Below, in pieces: positions 33,508-62,076 of a stretch of DNA of 64,000 nt. The notes under the pieces are model-generated. The model was given only the letters and a program-made list of their open reading frames with translations. It had not been told where the DNA came from and did not search any database. Location of the stretch: NCBI RefSeq assembly GCF_002118315.1, contig NZ_MTSZ01000001.1, positions 248,001-312,000 on the forward strand. The letters run 5' to 3'. This DNA is from Kiloniella majae. Lineage in GTDB: Bacteria > Pseudomonadota > Alphaproteobacteria > Kiloniellales > Kiloniellaceae. A program made the position numbers and the translations under genes. Position 1 is the stretch's first letter; every line of letters starts with the position of its first letter.

Positions 33508-33749
33508 TATTCCTCCCGCCAGATATAAAACAGAAATGAGGAAATGATATGTGCATATCCAACGCAGAAATCACGCCCACTTCCCCGCCCCTATTTTATA
33601 GCTGACAGGCAAACCAAACAATTCATCTGGAATTTTGTGAAGAAATCCATTTAGAGGAAAAAACCAATCAAACCCTCAACACGCAAACTTTTTAAAAAGA
33701 GAGGCTTTATCCCACGCCCTTCTTTACGGTAAAAGCATAGGAGAGTTGA

Positions 33750-36700
33750 GTGACGGTAAAGGGTTTCAGATTGTCCACCATTATTATTACGGAAAAAACC
33801 TCGCAAAAGCGCGACGTTCAAGCGGCAATCGGCAGTAAATACGGGCAAATTCTTCCCGCGGAAGGACACTTGTTAAGCCTGCAGGAACCTCAACAAATTC
33901 AAAGCAGTTGGGGACGGTGGTCATTTGACTTGCTCAAGCCTGATGATTTCTATCCAACCTGTCCGGCCCCTGATGCCTCGCCTTCAGCAAAAAGCAAACT
34001 GGAAGCCATTGCCAAAGCTCTTAAGACAGCCGAACGCGTCATCATCGCAACCGACTGTGACCGCGAAGGGCAGCTTATTGGTGAAGAGATTTTACGGCAC
34101 TATAAATTTGCAGGTCAGGTTCAGCGCGCCATGTTCACAGCGCAGGACGAAAAGACCCTGCGACAGGCTTTTGATAATCTGGAACCCAATGATAAATATC
34201 ATAATCTGGGCCAAGCAGCAGTTGTACGTCAGCAAGCGGATCAGGTTTATAACCTGTCTCTAACCCGTGCCGCTACCGTTGCCCTCAAACAACCCGGACA
34301 ATACGGCGCAATAGGTATTGGTCGTGTAAAGACGCCGACCATGGCAATCGTCTGTATGCGCGAATTGGAAATTCTGGATTTTACGCCGCAGGATTATTAC
34401 CATCTTGTCGCGACGGCAAAGGCTGAAAGTGGCGAACTGGACCTTCGTCACGCCCCCAAAGACCGTATTCTGAACCCGGAAAAGGCTGAAAAACTCCGCG
34501 CAGCTGTCGAAGGCTTTGAAGGTCCACTCAAAACAGAAAAGAAGATCAAGAAAACAAAACCACCGCGCCTTCTTGATCTGCCAGAATTACAAAAAATATG
34601 CGCCCGCCGCTGGGGATGGAGCGCCGACAAGACGCTTAATATTGCTCAAGAACTCTACGATGGGGAAGGTAAAAAAATTCAGACCTACCCCCGTGCTGAA
34701 TCCCGTTATCTGGCAGAAAACCAGATAGAAGACATCGGCGAAATCATTCAGGGACTGACCAAGCTTCCGCAATATCAGGGGATTGACCTGTCATCTCCCG
34801 AAGTGCGCAAAGGAAAATCCGGCCACTTTTCTGATGCAGGTTTGAAGGGTGTATCGCACCACGCGATTGTCCCCAATAAAAACACCATGGATCGCGTAGA
34901 AGTCATCTATGCACGCCTGACCCAAGATGAACAACGCATGTTCGATCTGGTTGCAAGTTCTTATCTCGCGATCCTGATGCCTGATTACGTCTATGAATCG
35001 ACCAGTGTATCTATGGAAGCCCCGGTAACTTTGCCTGATGAAGAGACAGGTCAAGAAAAAGAGAACATTCTCGATTTCAAAGTGACAGGTAATATCCCCA
35101 AAGAACAAGGTTGGAAAGCCGTCTATACCGATGTCATGGAAAAGAAGGAAGATCATGCTGGTGAACTTCCCCCTATTCAAGACGGAGACATTGCCGTTCT
35201 GTCCCCCGTGACAACGGATACCAAGAAAACCAAAGCGCCCCCACGCTACAACGAGGGAACCTTGATCGACGCCATGCAGAATGCCTGGCGGTTTGTTGAA
35301 AACAAAGACCTGAAAGAACGTCTAAAAGAAGCTAAGGGTATCGGCACACCGGCCACACGTGCAGCGGTAATTACCGGGCTAAAACTACAAAACTTTCTGG
35401 CCCAAAGTGGAAAACATATCGTTCCAACCGACGCAGGTCTGACCCTGTTCAAAACCCTGAAAGCAGCAGCCCCGGAACTGGTTGACCCCGGTGTTACCGC
35501 CATGTGGGAAATGAACATGGACGACGTGCTCGAAGGGAAACAGACGGCTCGGCAGGTTTGGGACGATATCGGCAATGATACAGAACGCCTTATCAGCATC
35601 CTCAAAACCAGTGCTGCTACCGCGCCCAAGATCAACACAGGCGTGGCAATGCCAAAAAATGCGGGTAAAGGCAAGCCAACGGATAAAATGAAGGAAACGG
35701 CAAAGTCCGTTGCCCAAAACAAGGGGTTAAAACTTCCCAAGGGCTATACATCCGATTTTAATGTTTGTCGTGAGTTTTTGGACGAACATCTCGGCGGCAA
35801 AGGGCCAAGCCCGGAAAAAGTTCTCGCAAACCTTGAAAAACAGCTCTCTGACGGCATGATCAAAGGGCTCGGGGCAAAGGCAGCAAAACAATTGGTCGAA
35901 AGCTTTGGAACCGATACGCTGAAAGTAATCATTGAAGCACCGGAAAAGCTTGCGACAGAAACATCCCTGCCAAAAGGGAAAGTTAACCTTCTGCAAGAAT
36001 GGTCAGAAGAAAGAAAAACACTCTCGGAAATTGCGACCTTCTTGCATAACCACGGTGTTGATCCTGCTAGGGCCTATCGACTTTTTACTTGTTTTGGACA
36101 AGACACTATCGCGAAATTAAAAGGCAATCCCTATTGTATCGTTCGCGATGTAAAGGCTATTCCCTTTGATGTACCCGATAGTATTGCGCACCGACTTGGA
36201 TTGGAAGCGCACTCTATAGAACGAGCTGGCGCAGCCTTGTATTACGCACTCGCTCAGGCCGCTGATGCACGCGAAAAAAACAACCTTTTGGCTCTCCTGC
36301 ATAAGCGCCTGGAAATCCCTGCTGATATTCTTGAACAGGCTCTGGCAAAAGAGATTGAAGCCAAACATATACATGCCTTCAAAGAAAAAGATGCCCAAAA
36401 AAATACAACTGGGAACTCACACGAATTCTTGATCCTGAAACAAGATTGGCAGGTAGATACAAAAATCAAAAAGCGTCTGAACACATTTTCAGAAGGCACT
36501 GTTCCCTGGGGAGAGATAGATACCCAAAAAGCAATTGATTGGGTTATTAACCGCGACAAGATTGTTCTCGCCGAAAAACAAAAAGGTGCCGTTGCCAAAC
36601 TGCTGGAAAGAAAGTTCACCATCCTGGAAGCCATTCACGGAACTGGTAAAGATGACGTTATAAAAGCTTTTGCTAAAATCGTCACAGCAAAAAACATATC

Positions 36701-37766
36701 CACTGTCGTCGCGGTTCCATCCTCTACACAGTTAAAAACAACAAATTCTGCACTGGATACAGATACAGTTTCAGTAACCAAACTACTTGAATACAATGCC
36801 AAGAGTAAAAGTTACAAACGAACCGCACGCAAGCCACTGGATTGCGAGCTTCTGATTATTGATCAGGCAGATCTCTTGGACCGTTCAATCTTACTTTCTG
36901 TACTGGACGCTCTGCCTGAGAGTGCAAGTCTGGTGTTGATGAAAAATCATTTACCCACAACTTTTCCAGGTAGTTTCTTCCCCGGCACTGGCCGGGTACT
37001 CGATAAGCTTCTTAAATCAGTTGATCATAGTAAGATTGCTCTTGATCAACTATCCGCAAGCTTTCAAAGCAACAAGCTTGCCCAAAACACGCTTACACTA
37101 AGCACGGGCGGGGACATCGACTATAGTTCTGACACACAAAATCCTGGTAGCTTCTATTTTATTACAGCTGAGAATGAGCAGGACGCACAACGTAAACTAG
37201 TCGAAGTCATCAAAAACCGCTTACCCAAAAGCTTTAAATACAACCCGATAAAAGACATTCAGGTCATTAGCATGGCCAAAGGCATGATCGGGCCGCAAAA
37301 CTTGACGTTTCAACTTCAGAATCTGTTAAATGATCAACAGCATGGCTTAAATCTGCAAAAATTTGGGGCGCGCTATAAAATTGGCGACAAAGTCATTTTG
37401 CAACAGAATGATTGCGAAAAAGATTTAATGACAGGCGATATTGGTTTTATCAAAGATATCACCCGTGATGAAATCCCCACGACTGGTGCTGAAAAATCCT
37501 ATTTAGACGACGGGCGGGTTACGATAGAATTTAGCGGGAAAAATCACGATTTTTCTTTTGGGGAACTGGATAACCTTAACCTCGCCTACGCTCTCCCTGC
37601 CAACAAAAGCCGGGACCAACTATCTCCGGCAACTGTCCTTATCCTTCCGCTCGAGAACTCTGTATCACCCTCTTCAGAAACCAAAGACATCACGTTCAGA
37701 AATACTTTATTAAAAGGCCTATTAACTGCCTCAGAACGGATCATTTTGATCGGACAACCTCAGTAA
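33750..37766 (+). CDS. Topoisomerase III fused to a degenerate RecD2-type helicase
   Basis: 1338 aa. Residues ~8-620 are a type IA topoisomerase: TOPRIM STIIITEKTSQKRDVQAAIG with ATDCDREGQLIGEEI, then IGIGRVKTPTMAIV, and catalytic Tyr313 in QTYPRAESRYL. Residues ~680-1338 match RecD2: helix-hairpin-helix region GLGAKAAKQLVESFGTDTLK, HNHGVDPARAYRLFTCFGQD, then the helicase core. Core motifs are altered: AIHGTGKDD for GxGKT, LLIIDQAD for IIDEAS, and NKSRDQLSPA for the KSQGSE motif. The GTG at 33750 has GGAG 6 bases upstream; a TTG at 33771 is possible. It lies 240 bases from terS, divergent, probably host DNA. Confidence 0.85.
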   Translation: MTVKGFRLSTIIITEKTSQKRDVQAAIGSKYGQILPAEGHLLSLQEPQQIQSSWGRWSFDLLKPDDFYPTCPAPDASPSAKSKLEAIAKALKTAERVIIATDCDREGQLIGEEILRHYKFAGQVQRAMFTAQDEKTLRQAFDNLEPNDKYHNLGQAAVVRQQADQVYNLSLTRAATVALKQPGQYGAIGIGRVKTPTMAIVCMRELEILDFTPQDYYHLVATAKAESGELDLRHAPKDRILNPEKAEKLRAAVEGFEGPLKTEKKIKKTKPPRLLDLPELQKICARRWGWSADKTLNIAQELYDGEGKKIQTYPRAESRYLAENQIEDIGEIIQGLTKLPQYQGIDLSSPEVRKGKSGHFSDAGLKGVSHHAIVPNKNTMDRVEVIYARLTQDEQRMFDLVASSYLAILMPDYVYESTSVSMEAPVTLPDEETGQEKENILDFKVTGNIPKEQGWKAVYTDVMEKKEDHAGELPPIQDGDIAVLSPVTTDTKKTKAPPRYNEGTLIDAMQNAWRFVENKDLKERLKEAKGIGTPATRAAVITGLKLQNFLAQSGKHIVPTDAGLTLFKTLKAAAPELVDPGVTAMWEMNMDDVLEGKQTARQVWDDIGNDTERLISILKTSAATAPKINTGVAMPKNAGKGKPTDKMKETAKSVAQNKGLKLPKGYTSDFNVCREFLDEHLGGKGPSPEKVLANLEKQLSDGMIKGLGAKAAKQLVESFGTDTLKVIIEAPEKLATETSLPKGKVNLLQEWSEERKTLSEIATFLHNHGVDPARAYRLFTCFGQDTIAKLKGNPYCIVRDVKAIPFDVPDSIAHRLGLEAHSIERAGAALYYALAQAADAREKNNLLALLHKRLEIPADILEQALAKEIEAKHIHAFKEKDAQKNTTGNSHEFLILKQDWQVDTKIKKRLNTFSEGTVPWGEIDTQKAIDWVINRDKIVLAEKQKGAVAKLLERKFTILEAIHGTGKDDVIKAFAKIVTAKNISTVVAVPSSTQLKTTNSALDTDTVSVTKLLEYNAKSKSYKRTARKPLDCELLIIDQADLLDRSILLSVLDALPESASLVLMKNHLPTTFPGSFFPGTGRVLDKLLKSVDHSKIALDQLSASFQSNKLAQNTLTLSTGGDIDYSSDTQNPGSFYFITAENEQDAQRKLVEVIKNRLPKSFKYNPIKDIQVISMAKGMIGPQNLTFQLQNLLNDQQHGLNLQKFGARYKIGDKVILQQNDCEKDLMTGDIGFIKDITRDEIPTTGAEKSYLDDGRVTIEFSGKNHDFSFGELDNLNLAYALPANKSRDQLSPATVLILPLENSVSPSSETKDITFRNTLLKGLLTASERIILIGQPQ

Positions 37767-59568: not shown

Positions 59569-62076
59569 ATGTCCAATTCGGATAAGCCCGTCAACGACAC
59601 TCCAAAAGACGTTACAGAAAACATCGCAGAAGATACCTCCGTTGATACGCCTGTAGAAACCAGTACTGAAGAAAAAAATCCTGACGTTTCACCACAGGAT
59701 GAACAAGACGAAACGCATGATGCAGATACTGACGCGGATGCAGAAACCACTTCTGACTCAGAGGCCAACACTGACACCGCCGCAAACGCTGAACCAGACG
59801 CTGAACCAGAACAAGCTGATCCCTTTGAAGGCGTAGCTGCACCCTTGGCAAAAGCCTTGGCCCAAAAAGGCTATGCCAAACTGACCCCTGTTCAAAAAGC
59901 CGTTCTTGATCCAGAACTAGCCGATGCGGATGCGTTGGTTTCTGCGCAAACAGGTTCCGGTAAAACCGTTGCTTTTGGTATTGCCCTCGCCCCGACATTG
60001 TTGGAAGGACAAGATCACTTCAAACGCGCCGATGCGCCCTTTGCCCTGATCATCACCCCAACCCGTGAACTTGCCCTACAGGTCATGCGAGAGCTGGAAT
60101 GGCTCTATGGCGATACAGGCGCGCGTACAGCCACCTGCGTTGGTGGTATGGATATGCGCAGTGAACGTCGTGCGTTGGAACGTGGTGCGCATATTGTTGT
60201 TGGTACGCCCGGGCGTCTTCGGGACCATATTGAACGCGGTTCCCTGAACATTAGTGCCTTGAGGGCCGTTGTTCTAGATGAAGCGGATGAAATGCTTGAT
60301 CTCGGCTTCCGGGATGATCTGGAATATATGCTGGATACCACACCAAAAGAACGTCGCACGCTGATGTTCTCGGCGACTGTACCGCGCTCTATTGCCATGC
60401 TAGCCAAGCGTTATCAGCGTAATGCAGTTCGGATCAGCACCAAAGCCGAAGAAAAACAGCACAGCGATATTGAATACCGCGCCTTGACCGTTGCTCCTAA
60501 CGACAAGGAAAATGCGATCATCAATCTGGTTCGATATTATGAGCCAAAGAATGCGATTGTTTTCTGTGCGACCCGTGCAACGGTAAACCACATGACCAGC
60601 CGCTTTTCCAATCGCGGCTTTTCAGTCGTGGCTCTGTCCGGTGAGTTAAGTCAAAACCTTCGTAGCCATGCGATTCAAGCCCTGCGTGATGGGCGGGCAC
60701 AAGTCTGCATTGCTACAGACGTTGCCGCCCGTGGTATTGATCTACCAGATCTGGAACTCGTTGTTCATGCCGATATTCCCAAAAGCCGCGAACCACTGCT
60801 TCACAGGTCCGGCAGAACAGGCCGTGCAGGCCGTAAGGGTGTTTCTGCCCTTGTTGTGCCCTTTAACTGGCGTAAACGCACGGAACGGCTATTGGAAAGT
60901 GCCAAGGTTCAAGCAACCTGGGCCAAGCCGCCATCTGTTGAAGAAATTTTGCAACGAGATCGTGAGCGCTTCCTTGCCAACCCAACACTGATCGAGCCTA
61001 TAAAAGAAGAAGAACAGGCTTTCATCAAAGAGTTAATCGAAAAGCACGGCGCAGAACAGATTGCTGCTGCGTTAATTCGGACACAAAGCGCAGGACGTCC
61101 CGCGCCGGAAGAGCTAATCGACCGCCCGGAAAGACCATCACGAGAAAGAGATCGCGACAGAGGTGGCAGAGATCGTGGCGGCAGCGATCGGGACAGAGGT
61201 CGTGATCGCGACGAAGGGTACGAATACGGCAACGGCGGCAGACGCAATAACGCCCCTGGAACCCGTAAAGAGCGGGTAGATTTCGAAGACGGTGTCTGGA
61301 TTTCCATGACCGTCGGGCGCAAGCATACAGCAGACCCTAAATGGTTGTTGCCAATGGTTTGTCGTGCAGGGTGCATCACCAAAAAGGAAATCGGTGCTAT
61401 CCGCATTCACATGGCCGAAACCCATGTCGAGCTTACCCCTAAAGGCGCGGAAAAGTTCTTTGAGACCATTGGCGGTAGCAACCGGATTGAAAAAACCATT
61501 ACCGTTAAACGTCTGGAAGGTATTCCTGATCTGCCCGAAGATACGCTGGATGATAAAGACGGTCCCGGATACCACCGCCAGCCCAGAGAAAGCAAAAAAC
61601 ATAAGCAAAAACCGTTTCGCGATAACTTCAACCGAAGCGACCGGAGTAAAGAATACAGCCGTCGCGCGGCCGAAGGAAAAGACACCAAAGATCGGGATGA
61701 AAAATCTACTGATCGTAAATTTGGCGATAAACCTTACGGCAAAAAGAAATTTGGTGACCGCAAAGCGGGTGAGCGGGATTACGCAAAGAAAGATCACAAT
61801 CCCAAAGCTAAAACCAAGTTTAAAGGCAAATTTGGTTCTGATGGCAAGTTCCAAGGCCCCCAAGATGATAGCGGAAAAAAACCTTGGTTTGACGACAGTT
61901 CGGATAGCAAGCGTCGCGAAGGTGACAAAAAGCCATTTGGCAAAAAACCGTTCCGCGATAGCGCCAAAGGTCCAAAGTCAGGTGCGAAACCTTTCAAAGG
62001 TAAAGGCGGAAAACCAGCTGGTGATAAAGCAGGCGCCTCGACACTGAAACGGAAAAAATCGCCAAAGAAGGATTGA
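59569..62076 (+). CDS. DEAD-box RNA helicase, DeaD/CsdA-like
   Basis: 835 aa. Residues 1-85 are very acidic and Thr-rich (disordered). The helicase core has Q-motif FEGVAAPLAKALAQKGYAKL, motif I AQTGSGKT, PTRELALQ, DEAD as LDEADEML, SAT, and HRSGRTGRAGR. A DbpA-type RNA-binding domain follows (WISMTVGRKHTADPKWLLPM, GAIRIHMAETHVEL). The last ~230 residues are a Lys/Asp/Gly-rich basic tail. It unwinds RNA in ribosome assembly and RNA decay, often in cold. The long acidic head and basic tail are unusual in degree. Confidence 0.92.
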   Translation: MSNSDKPVNDTPKDVTENIAEDTSVDTPVETSTEEKNPDVSPQDEQDETHDADTDADAETTSDSEANTDTAANAEPDAEPEQADPFEGVAAPLAKALAQKGYAKLTPVQKAVLDPELADADALVSAQTGSGKTVAFGIALAPTLLEGQDHFKRADAPFALIITPTRELALQVMRELEWLYGDTGARTATCVGGMDMRSERRALERGAHIVVGTPGRLRDHIERGSLNISALRAVVLDEADEMLDLGFRDDLEYMLDTTPKERRTLMFSATVPRSIAMLAKRYQRNAVRISTKAEEKQHSDIEYRALTVAPNDKENAIINLVRYYEPKNAIVFCATRATVNHMTSRFSNRGFSVVALSGELSQNLRSHAIQALRDGRAQVCIATDVAARGIDLPDLELVVHADIPKSREPLLHRSGRTGRAGRKGVSALVVPFNWRKRTERLLESAKVQATWAKPPSVEEILQRDRERFLANPTLIEPIKEEEQAFIKELIEKHGAEQIAAALIRTQSAGRPAPEELIDRPERPSRERDRDRGGRDRGGSDRDRGRDRDEGYEYGNGGRRNNAPGTRKERVDFEDGVWISMTVGRKHTADPKWLLPMVCRAGCITKKEIGAIRIHMAETHVELTPKGAEKFFETIGGSNRIEKTITVKRLEGIPDLPEDTLDDKDGPGYHRQPRESKKHKQKPFRDNFNRSDRSKEYSRRAAEGKDTKDRDEKSTDRKFGDKPYGKKKFGDRKAGERDYAKKDHNPKAKTKFKGKFGSDGKFQGPQDDSGKKPWFDDSSDSKRREGDKKPFGKKPFRDSAKGPKSGAKPFKGKGGKPAGDKAGASTLKRKKSPKKD

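Follow-up and report, generated by a model that had tools for sequence, protein, structure and literature searches.

The known partnerships between topoisomerases and helicases, among them reverse gyrase and the pair of RecQ and topoisomerase III, depend on a motor that is active. Reverse gyrase unites a type IA topoisomerase and a helicase in one chain, the motor being active, N-terminal and of superfamily 2 (SF2), in part after PMC10233626. Inactivated helicases of superfamily 1 (SF1) are described in AddB and RecC, whose domains have lost most or all motifs and were co-opted as scanners of single-stranded DNA (ssDNA) sequence (PMC4824097). RecD2 is an SF1B helicase which, when intact, binds forks; contact to both arms has been proposed, one perhaps via the N-terminal domain (PMC12143592). 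The stretch of DNA analysed here, referred to as the window, comprises 64,000 nucleotides of the genome of Kiloniella majae (contig NZ_MTSZ01000001.1). Its positions 33750-37766 on the forward strand form a single open reading frame (ORF) with a GTG start that encodes 1338 amino acids (aa), with a type IA topoisomerase at the N-terminus and a RecD2-derived half at the C-terminus. Like reverse gyrase it joins a type IA topoisomerase and a helicase in one chain, whereas its motor is SF1B-derived, C-terminal and dead. The reverse gyrase model rgy (TIGR01054) reached only 74.4 bits against a cut-off of 471.7, with the best stretch at residues 79-318, within the topoisomerase half, and this search met no helicase half of the reverse-gyrase kind.

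The topoisomerase half is of type IA, topoisomerase III-like, and has its catalytic residues intact. The catalytic set E15, K16, D102, D104, E106, Y313 and R315 is identical in all 13 aligned fusions of this kind, and the half matches topoisomerase III in the PDB (1d6m, E 6.8e-58). The two best NCBIfam models are both of topoisomerase III, although neither cut-off is reached (NF005829, 428.4 bits against 597; TIGR01056 topB, 401.3 bits against 515.75). With TopB the protein shares a TOPRIM domain and a catalytic Tyr in place, and it differs from TopB by the RecD2-derived extension of about 650 residues and by the score below the TIGR01056 cut-off. The unfused topoisomerases of Alphaproteobacteria (~720-800 aa; Azospirillum, Methylosinus, Bradyrhizobium plasmids) are, where the locus is full-length, 47-56% identical to it across the greater part of residues 8-680. 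They mostly have the same C-terminal module and end at or shortly past it, some with another short tail, whereas in the fusion the RecD2 part is attached downstream of this module (residues 641-683). A close relative of the topoisomerase at G401:C1:789375-791218 lies in two frames (530 and 485 aa) and may be a split gene; this genome has two RecD2 copies.

The RecD2 half is, judged from its sequence, a pseudo-helicase without the residues that SF1 enzymes use for ATP hydrolysis. The 13 aligned fusions were compared with 23 standalone alphaproteobacterial RecD2 proteins, that is the 28 loci L027-L054 minus two fusions already included and three fragments (L050, L053 and L054). All 23 standalone proteins keep the Lys of Walker A, the Asp and Glu of Walker B, the Gly and Arg of motif Ia, the Arg of motif IV, the Gly of motif V and the Arg of motif VI. 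In the fusions the Walker B Glu, both motif Ia residues, the motif IV Arg (with one gap) and the motif V Gly are kept in none of the 13, the motif VI Arg in one, the Walker B Asp in six and the Walker A Lys in eight. The initial annotation had read the frame as a complete type IA topoisomerase (TOPRIM, Tyr313) followed by a RecD2-type half with three altered ATPase motifs (HGTGKDD, IIDQAD and KSRDQ). Pfam and NCBIfam matches and the residues invariant in 13 of 13 fusions bear out the layout, and the three motifs had been read correctly, KSRDQ aligning to KSQGS. The losses are wider still, as in the alignment with standalone RecD2 the Kiloniella protein has lost motifs Ia, III, IV and VI besides Walker A, Walker B and motif V.

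The annotation had also named close relatives with intact GKT and DE motifs as the finding that would speak for simple decay of this copy, and no such relative was encountered. At locus L069 the Walker A of the fusion still agrees with the consensus GxxxxGKT, with DR at Walker B. The fusion L074 retains motif III (GDADQL) and the Arg of motif VI, with a broken Walker A and DQ at Walker B. A fourteenth fusion cut by the contig end (L146) reads IIDA at Walker B and is dead too, and the motor motifs are also dead in the copy on the IMG/VR contig L023. The loss in every fusion found means that this is not one isolated decayed copy, and isolated decay was rejected as an explanation. DQ stands for DE at Walker B in four of the eight Kiloniella-group fusions and in L074; an early change from DE to DQ followed by erosion of the remaining motifs is a possible order of events.

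The RecD2 model TIGR01448 gave 306 bits against a cut-off of 500, which was exceeded in none of the 14 genome handles. The match begins at profile position 73 of 713, the half being without the N-terminal OB domain. The Pfam domains OB_YrrC and UvrD_C_2 were not found in the fusion, whereas both were found in an intact standalone alphaproteobacterial RecD2 (L129). On the protein, the NCBIfam matches span residues 34-659 (TopB) and 693-1337 (TIGR01448), both below the curated cut-offs, and a Pfam AAA_19/AAA_30 match lies at residues 940-1063. Compared with RecD2, the predicted fold and the helix-hairpin-helix and SH3-like parts are kept, whereas the motor motifs are lost, the OB domain is absent and a topoisomerase is attached.

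The modelling that had been suggested for this half agrees with its derivation. An AlphaFold2 model of residues 641-1338, built on the fusions' own alignment, had a predicted local distance difference test score (pLDDT) of 85.7 and a predicted template modelling score (pTM) of 0.80. Its best match in the PDB was RecD2 (3e1s, Z 32.9 over 476 residues, root-mean-square deviation (rmsd) 3.7 A), and Foldseek matched it to 3gp8 (E 3.7e-31). The model is helical up to model residue 230, where an OB domain was not seen. The corresponding half of the Terasakiella fusion, which has no P-loop, was modelled with a pLDDT of 86.0 and matched 3e1s with Z 35.6 (457 aligned residues at an rmsd of 4.2 A). The two models are not independent, because both come from shallow alignments with largely common rows. 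The dead half is thus predicted to keep the RecD2 tertiary fold.

The fusion was found in 14 species genomes: eight of the nine in the Kiloniella genus group, Terasakiella, Aestuariispira and four of a Sneathiella group. The first search for relatives, in 58 genomes, had retrieved it from its own genome and from seven of the eight others of the same genus, the negative eighth being 77% complete. Beyond the genus it occurs in Terasakiella pusilla, Aestuariispira insulae, a Sneathiella metagenome-assembled genome, bacterium 46_93_T64, G223 and, as the copy cut by the contig end, G455; the last four form one genus group. The IMG/VR contig L023 carries a further copy (97% identical), and that on L022 is identical to the gene of K. 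litopenaei. A sequencing or assembly artefact is ruled out by the presence of the fusion in eight Kiloniella-group and six other species genomes. A search of 13 genomes that carry the fusion showed no other full-length RecD2-like gene in 12 of them; K. litopenaei has an extra one of 739 aa. RecQ scored above the cut-off in 17 of 20 genome handles, a set in which three lack the fusion and two genomes are entered twice, and the three handles without RecQ correspond to two incomplete assemblies.

A fusion with a live motor was sought in samples of genomes, all within one phylum. None was present in 385 sampled genomes of the class, where 32 had a match and four carried fusions, all dead, the few other matches being short frames. 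Nor did any appear in 398 sampled genomes of the phylum searched with PF14490, where 17 had a match, a few frames were short and a frame longer than 911 aa was found in the own genome only. Among the best 5000 plasmid matches, seven records had one place covering at least 80% of the query, and in the plasmid records that list both halves (H11-H16 and H22, seven among the matches listed) these are separate genes. In phages, 77 records matched and none covered more than 80% of the query.

A tree of the topoisomerase halves with 25 unfused relatives placed the fusions in one clade (100/100, and 100% of 200 bootstrap trees). The same was obtained for the helicase halves with 32 standalone RecD2 proteins in a quick tree, from which L153 dropped out and L161 was left out (support of 100 in the Shimodaira-Hasegawa-like approximate likelihood ratio test, SH-aLRT). 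One supported clade for each half makes it likely that the fusion arose once, in an ancestor of these bacteria. The ratios of nonsynonymous to synonymous divergence (dN/dS) by the NG86 method, in seven pairs, were 0.02-0.07 for the topoisomerase, 0.05-0.19 for the helix-hairpin-helix region and 0.10-0.28 for the dead helicase core, and bootstrap upper bounds for the core reached 0.38 at most; the YN00 method gave 0.15-0.33 for the core in four pairs. These ratios are rough, since synonymous divergence (dS) is near or above 1 in several pairs. They show that the dead core is constrained: it is under purifying selection, less strict than that on the enzyme half. Among the positions conserved in 22 or all 23 intact RecD2s, 38 are retained in 10 or more of the 13 fusions and 62 in three or fewer. 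Six of these 62 precede the shared part and five lie beyond its end, and the remaining 51, inside the shared part, include the catalytic and ssDNA-track motifs. Outside Kiloniella the terminal branches of the dead core are several times longer.

We hold with moderate confidence that the protein is a lineage-conserved, ATP-independent topoisomerase III that uses an inert RecD2 module to reach its target on DNA or in the replisome, in a way that would recall AddB and RecC. On this view a RecD2 helicase that lacked the OB domain at its N-terminus would have become attached downstream of the topoisomerase, most likely in a single event in an ancestor, and the topoisomerase would occupy the place of the absent domain. 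The motor would then have died, with the helix-hairpin-helix domains and the SF1 fold retained as an accessory module that could position the topoisomerase on forked or partly single-stranded DNA. Because type IA enzymes act on such DNA, the fusion could do without unwinding of its own, and any extra unwinding needed might come from RecQ or the replisome. As the predicted shape is kept but the motor is lost in every relative examined, the helicase part is probably reused as a holder or guide for the topoisomerase. AddB and RecC serve as a model of how it might work, since their SF1 fold is kept with the motifs lost (PMC4824097), the fold being a predicted one in the fusion. Their domains sit in helicase-nuclease complexes and that of AddB is UvrD-like, and the likeness is put forward as an analogy of function.

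Several observations weigh against this proposal. The residues of the ssDNA track (motifs Ia, III and V) were lost along with the ATP site, so that DNA binding by the core is not assured, and the N-terminal domain proposed as the second DNA site of RecD2 is absent. The dead core evolves several-fold faster than the topoisomerase half. The occurrence of the fusion is patchy: it was found in none of 49 genomes of the Kiloniella family and order outside the genus and, counted by order with the query genomes included, in 4 of 25 (order of G223), 1 of 43 (G266) and 1 of 150 (Terasakiella). Long-branch warnings were raised for L160, G223, L074, L076 and L073 in the helicase-half tree and for L010 in the topoisomerase-half tree, where long branches also meet, and the branch order within the fusion clade differs between the two trees; for these reasons a single origin is likely rather than proved. 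Finally, the DEAD-box helicase gene that lies close to the fusion in other genera was not in range of it in L074 and L075.

What the dead half would hold on to can be viewed in two ways, and from the residues kept and lost both the DNA-binding clamp steering the topoisomerase that the initial annotation proposed and a protein-docking scaffold are possible roles. It is a tentative suggestion that the dead core of RecD2 recognises some specific sequence or structure of DNA (a fork, a gap or a precatenane crossing) and keeps the type IA gate in place at that site; if such a DNA-reading head existed, these bacteria would have a target-selective, ATP-free decatenase. The main rival, owing to the loss of conserved residues from the old ssDNA track too, is that the dead half mainly binds a partner of the replisome or of recombination rather than DNA, and recruits the topoisomerase in that manner. 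This is a somewhat doubtful alternative, but the DNA-track motifs have gone together with the ATP site and conserved blocks lie outside the motifs, for instance NRLP at residues 1156-1159 and the SH3-like region with its surroundings (1205-1274). In addition, RecD2 of B. subtilis is listed among the proteins that SsbA recruits (PMC13220808). Against docking, the helix-hairpin-helix region is better conserved than the core. Such regions usually bind the DNA backbone.

It is unlikely that the dead half acts as a switch in which some members bind a nucleotide without hydrolysing it, the binding altering the conformation around the topoisomerase. A DE to DQ change typically blocks hydrolysis and not binding, so the DQ of the five fusions mentioned above, the Walker A Lys and Walker B Asp retained in eight and six of the 13 fusions and the intact Walker A consensus of L069 would suit such a role. 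However, Terasakiella, L074, L075 and G223 no longer have the Walker A Lys and Aestuariispira has Arg in its place, Thr is kept in L069 only among the eight fusions that have the Lys, and the 1A region is the segment with the highest dN/dS in five of seven pairs.

We consider it very improbable that the helicase half is a passenger which has been dying since the fusion, with the topoisomerase alone being of importance. The faster evolution, the differing residues at each motif and the patchy occurrence could be so explained, but in all 14 fusions, which span several genera, the RecD2 half reads through some 600 codons or more without an internal stop, dN/dS is well below 1 and the 38 positions mentioned above persist in 10-13 of the 13 fusions. 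Least credible, and rejected, is that the fusion belongs to the phage-like cluster adjoining it: a small terminase gene does lie 242 bp away, divergently, and two IMG/VR contigs carry the fusion at one end, but it occurs in other genomic settings without such a cluster, being near a DEAD-box gene with no terminase match in the stretch seen in Terasakiella, Aestuariispira and G223, and the major head protein was found in none of four outgroup genomes tested.

If the RecD2 module is indeed reused, as we favour, the fusion would provide one more context, next to those of AddB and RecC, for the reuse of a dead SF1 helicase fold. It offers a natural removal of the motor with the shape kept, in several genera, together with an unfused pair of live motor and topoisomerase for comparison, and it lets one test what a helicase gives to a type IA topoisomerase besides unwinding. 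The initial annotation supposed a new kind of fusion; in the literature searched, which covers few subscription papers, no description of a topoisomerase-RecD2 fusion, or of a dead helicase on a type IA topoisomerase, was found. Another bacterial topoisomerase-helicase combination may exist in DpdF of the Dpd defence system, as its PADLOC profile PDLC02865 matches the topoisomerase core (best stretch 238-601, window 34461-35552, E 3e-54) and a list of defence proteins published elsewhere (PMC12278908) includes DpdF as one that has an SF1/SF2 helicase domain. The best stretch of the DpdF profile covers the topoisomerase core only.

Topoisomerase and RecD2 genes have been brought together more than once, as is shown by three arrangements. 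In the alphaproteobacterium G136 (L168:4154-10943) a phage-type integrase gene, an ORF of 152 aa, an unfused topoisomerase (778 aa, 51% identical to that of the window), an ORF of 120 aa without Pfam match and an intact RecD2 (729 aa) lie on one strand, the last two overlapping by four bases; this topoisomerase with a live RecD2 is a possible precursor of the fusion. In Acidisphaera (L129) an intact RecD2 is divergent to the topoisomerase, and on a Geobacillus plasmid RecD2, lepB and a type IA topoisomerase follow in succession, the same three names being listed in at least five further Bacillota plasmid records. Such adjacency is nevertheless exceptional in Alphaproteobacteria and was rejected as a rule: RecD2 was in range at one (L129) of 66 non-fusion alphaproteobacterial topoisomerase loci, some of them short or partial. 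The second locus with RecD2 in range is the Geobacillus plasmid, a 67th locus. Among 27 genomes bearing RecD2, two had a topoisomerase close by, and the genes are side by side in G136 only.

The features of the locus are collected in the table below. The start and the frame of the fusion gene are common to most Kiloniella-group relatives, and a scan for promoters and terminators gave nothing above the level of chance. The two fusions of Kiloniella laminariae (L072 and L078) are longer, with 1480 and 1500 aa, and have insertions in the pseudo-helicase, one of which adjoins the SH3-like region.

Table. Positions in the window of the fusion gene, its parts and associated features
Feature	Position	Strand	Basis
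Topoisomerase III - pseudo-RecD2 fusion gene	33750..37766	+	ORF reading; Pfam/NCBIfam; same fusion in 14 species genomes
AGGAGAG, likely ribosome-binding site	33739..33745	+	Sequence
TOPRIM domain, residues 10-119, including E15, D102, D104 and E106	33777..34106	+	Pfam PF01751; residues invariant in 13/13 fusions
Type IA topoisomerase core (Topoisom_bac), residues 149-603	34194..35558	+	Pfam PF01131, E 3.1e-87
Catalytic Tyr313 codon	34686..34688	+	TYPRAESRY; invariant in 13/13 fusions
Topoisomerase C-terminal module, PTDKM...CREFLDEH, residues 641-683	35670..35798	+	Also near the end of most unfused relatives
RecD2 helix-hairpin-helix region, ~residues 693-840	35826..36269	+	PF14490 (HHH_RecD2) at 755-839; TIGR01448 from 693; GxG and PY residues kept
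Degenerate Walker A, HGTGKDD, residues 963-969	36636..36656	+	Alignment with standalone RecD2
Degenerate Walker B, IIDQAD; Q1039 replaces the catalytic Glu	36855..36872	+	Alignment with standalone RecD2
SH3-like RecD2 domain (SH3_13), residues 1188-1241, conserved	37311..37472	+	PF18335, 39.6 bits, just below the cut-off of 41
Degenerate motif V, KSRDQ replacing KSQGS	37605..37619	+	Alignment with standalone RecD2
DEAD-box gene homologue	59569-62076		Homology to neighbours of the fusion in other genomes

The immediate neighbour of the fusion in G223, and the next but one gene in Terasakiella and Aestuariispira, encodes a DEAD-box helicase (Pfam domains DEAD, Helicase_C and DbpA). Judged from this neighbourhood in other genera, the fusion has most likely been a chromosomal gene for a long time, and the phage-like cluster that adjoins it in Kiloniella is to be treated separately. 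The cluster occupies positions 2202-33507 of the window, encodes a head-tail adaptor, a major head protein, tail proteins and both terminase subunits, and derives perhaps from a short-tailed phage. Its major head protein is 96-99% identical in six of the eight other Kiloniella-group genomes, the misses being the 77% complete assembly and one of 440 contigs; a number of the remaining cluster genes diverge far more than this protein. In each of the seven other Kiloniella-group loci, the distance between the fusion and the terminase genes is within 86-3273 bp. The cluster looks like a fixed, perhaps domesticated element or a gene transfer agent.

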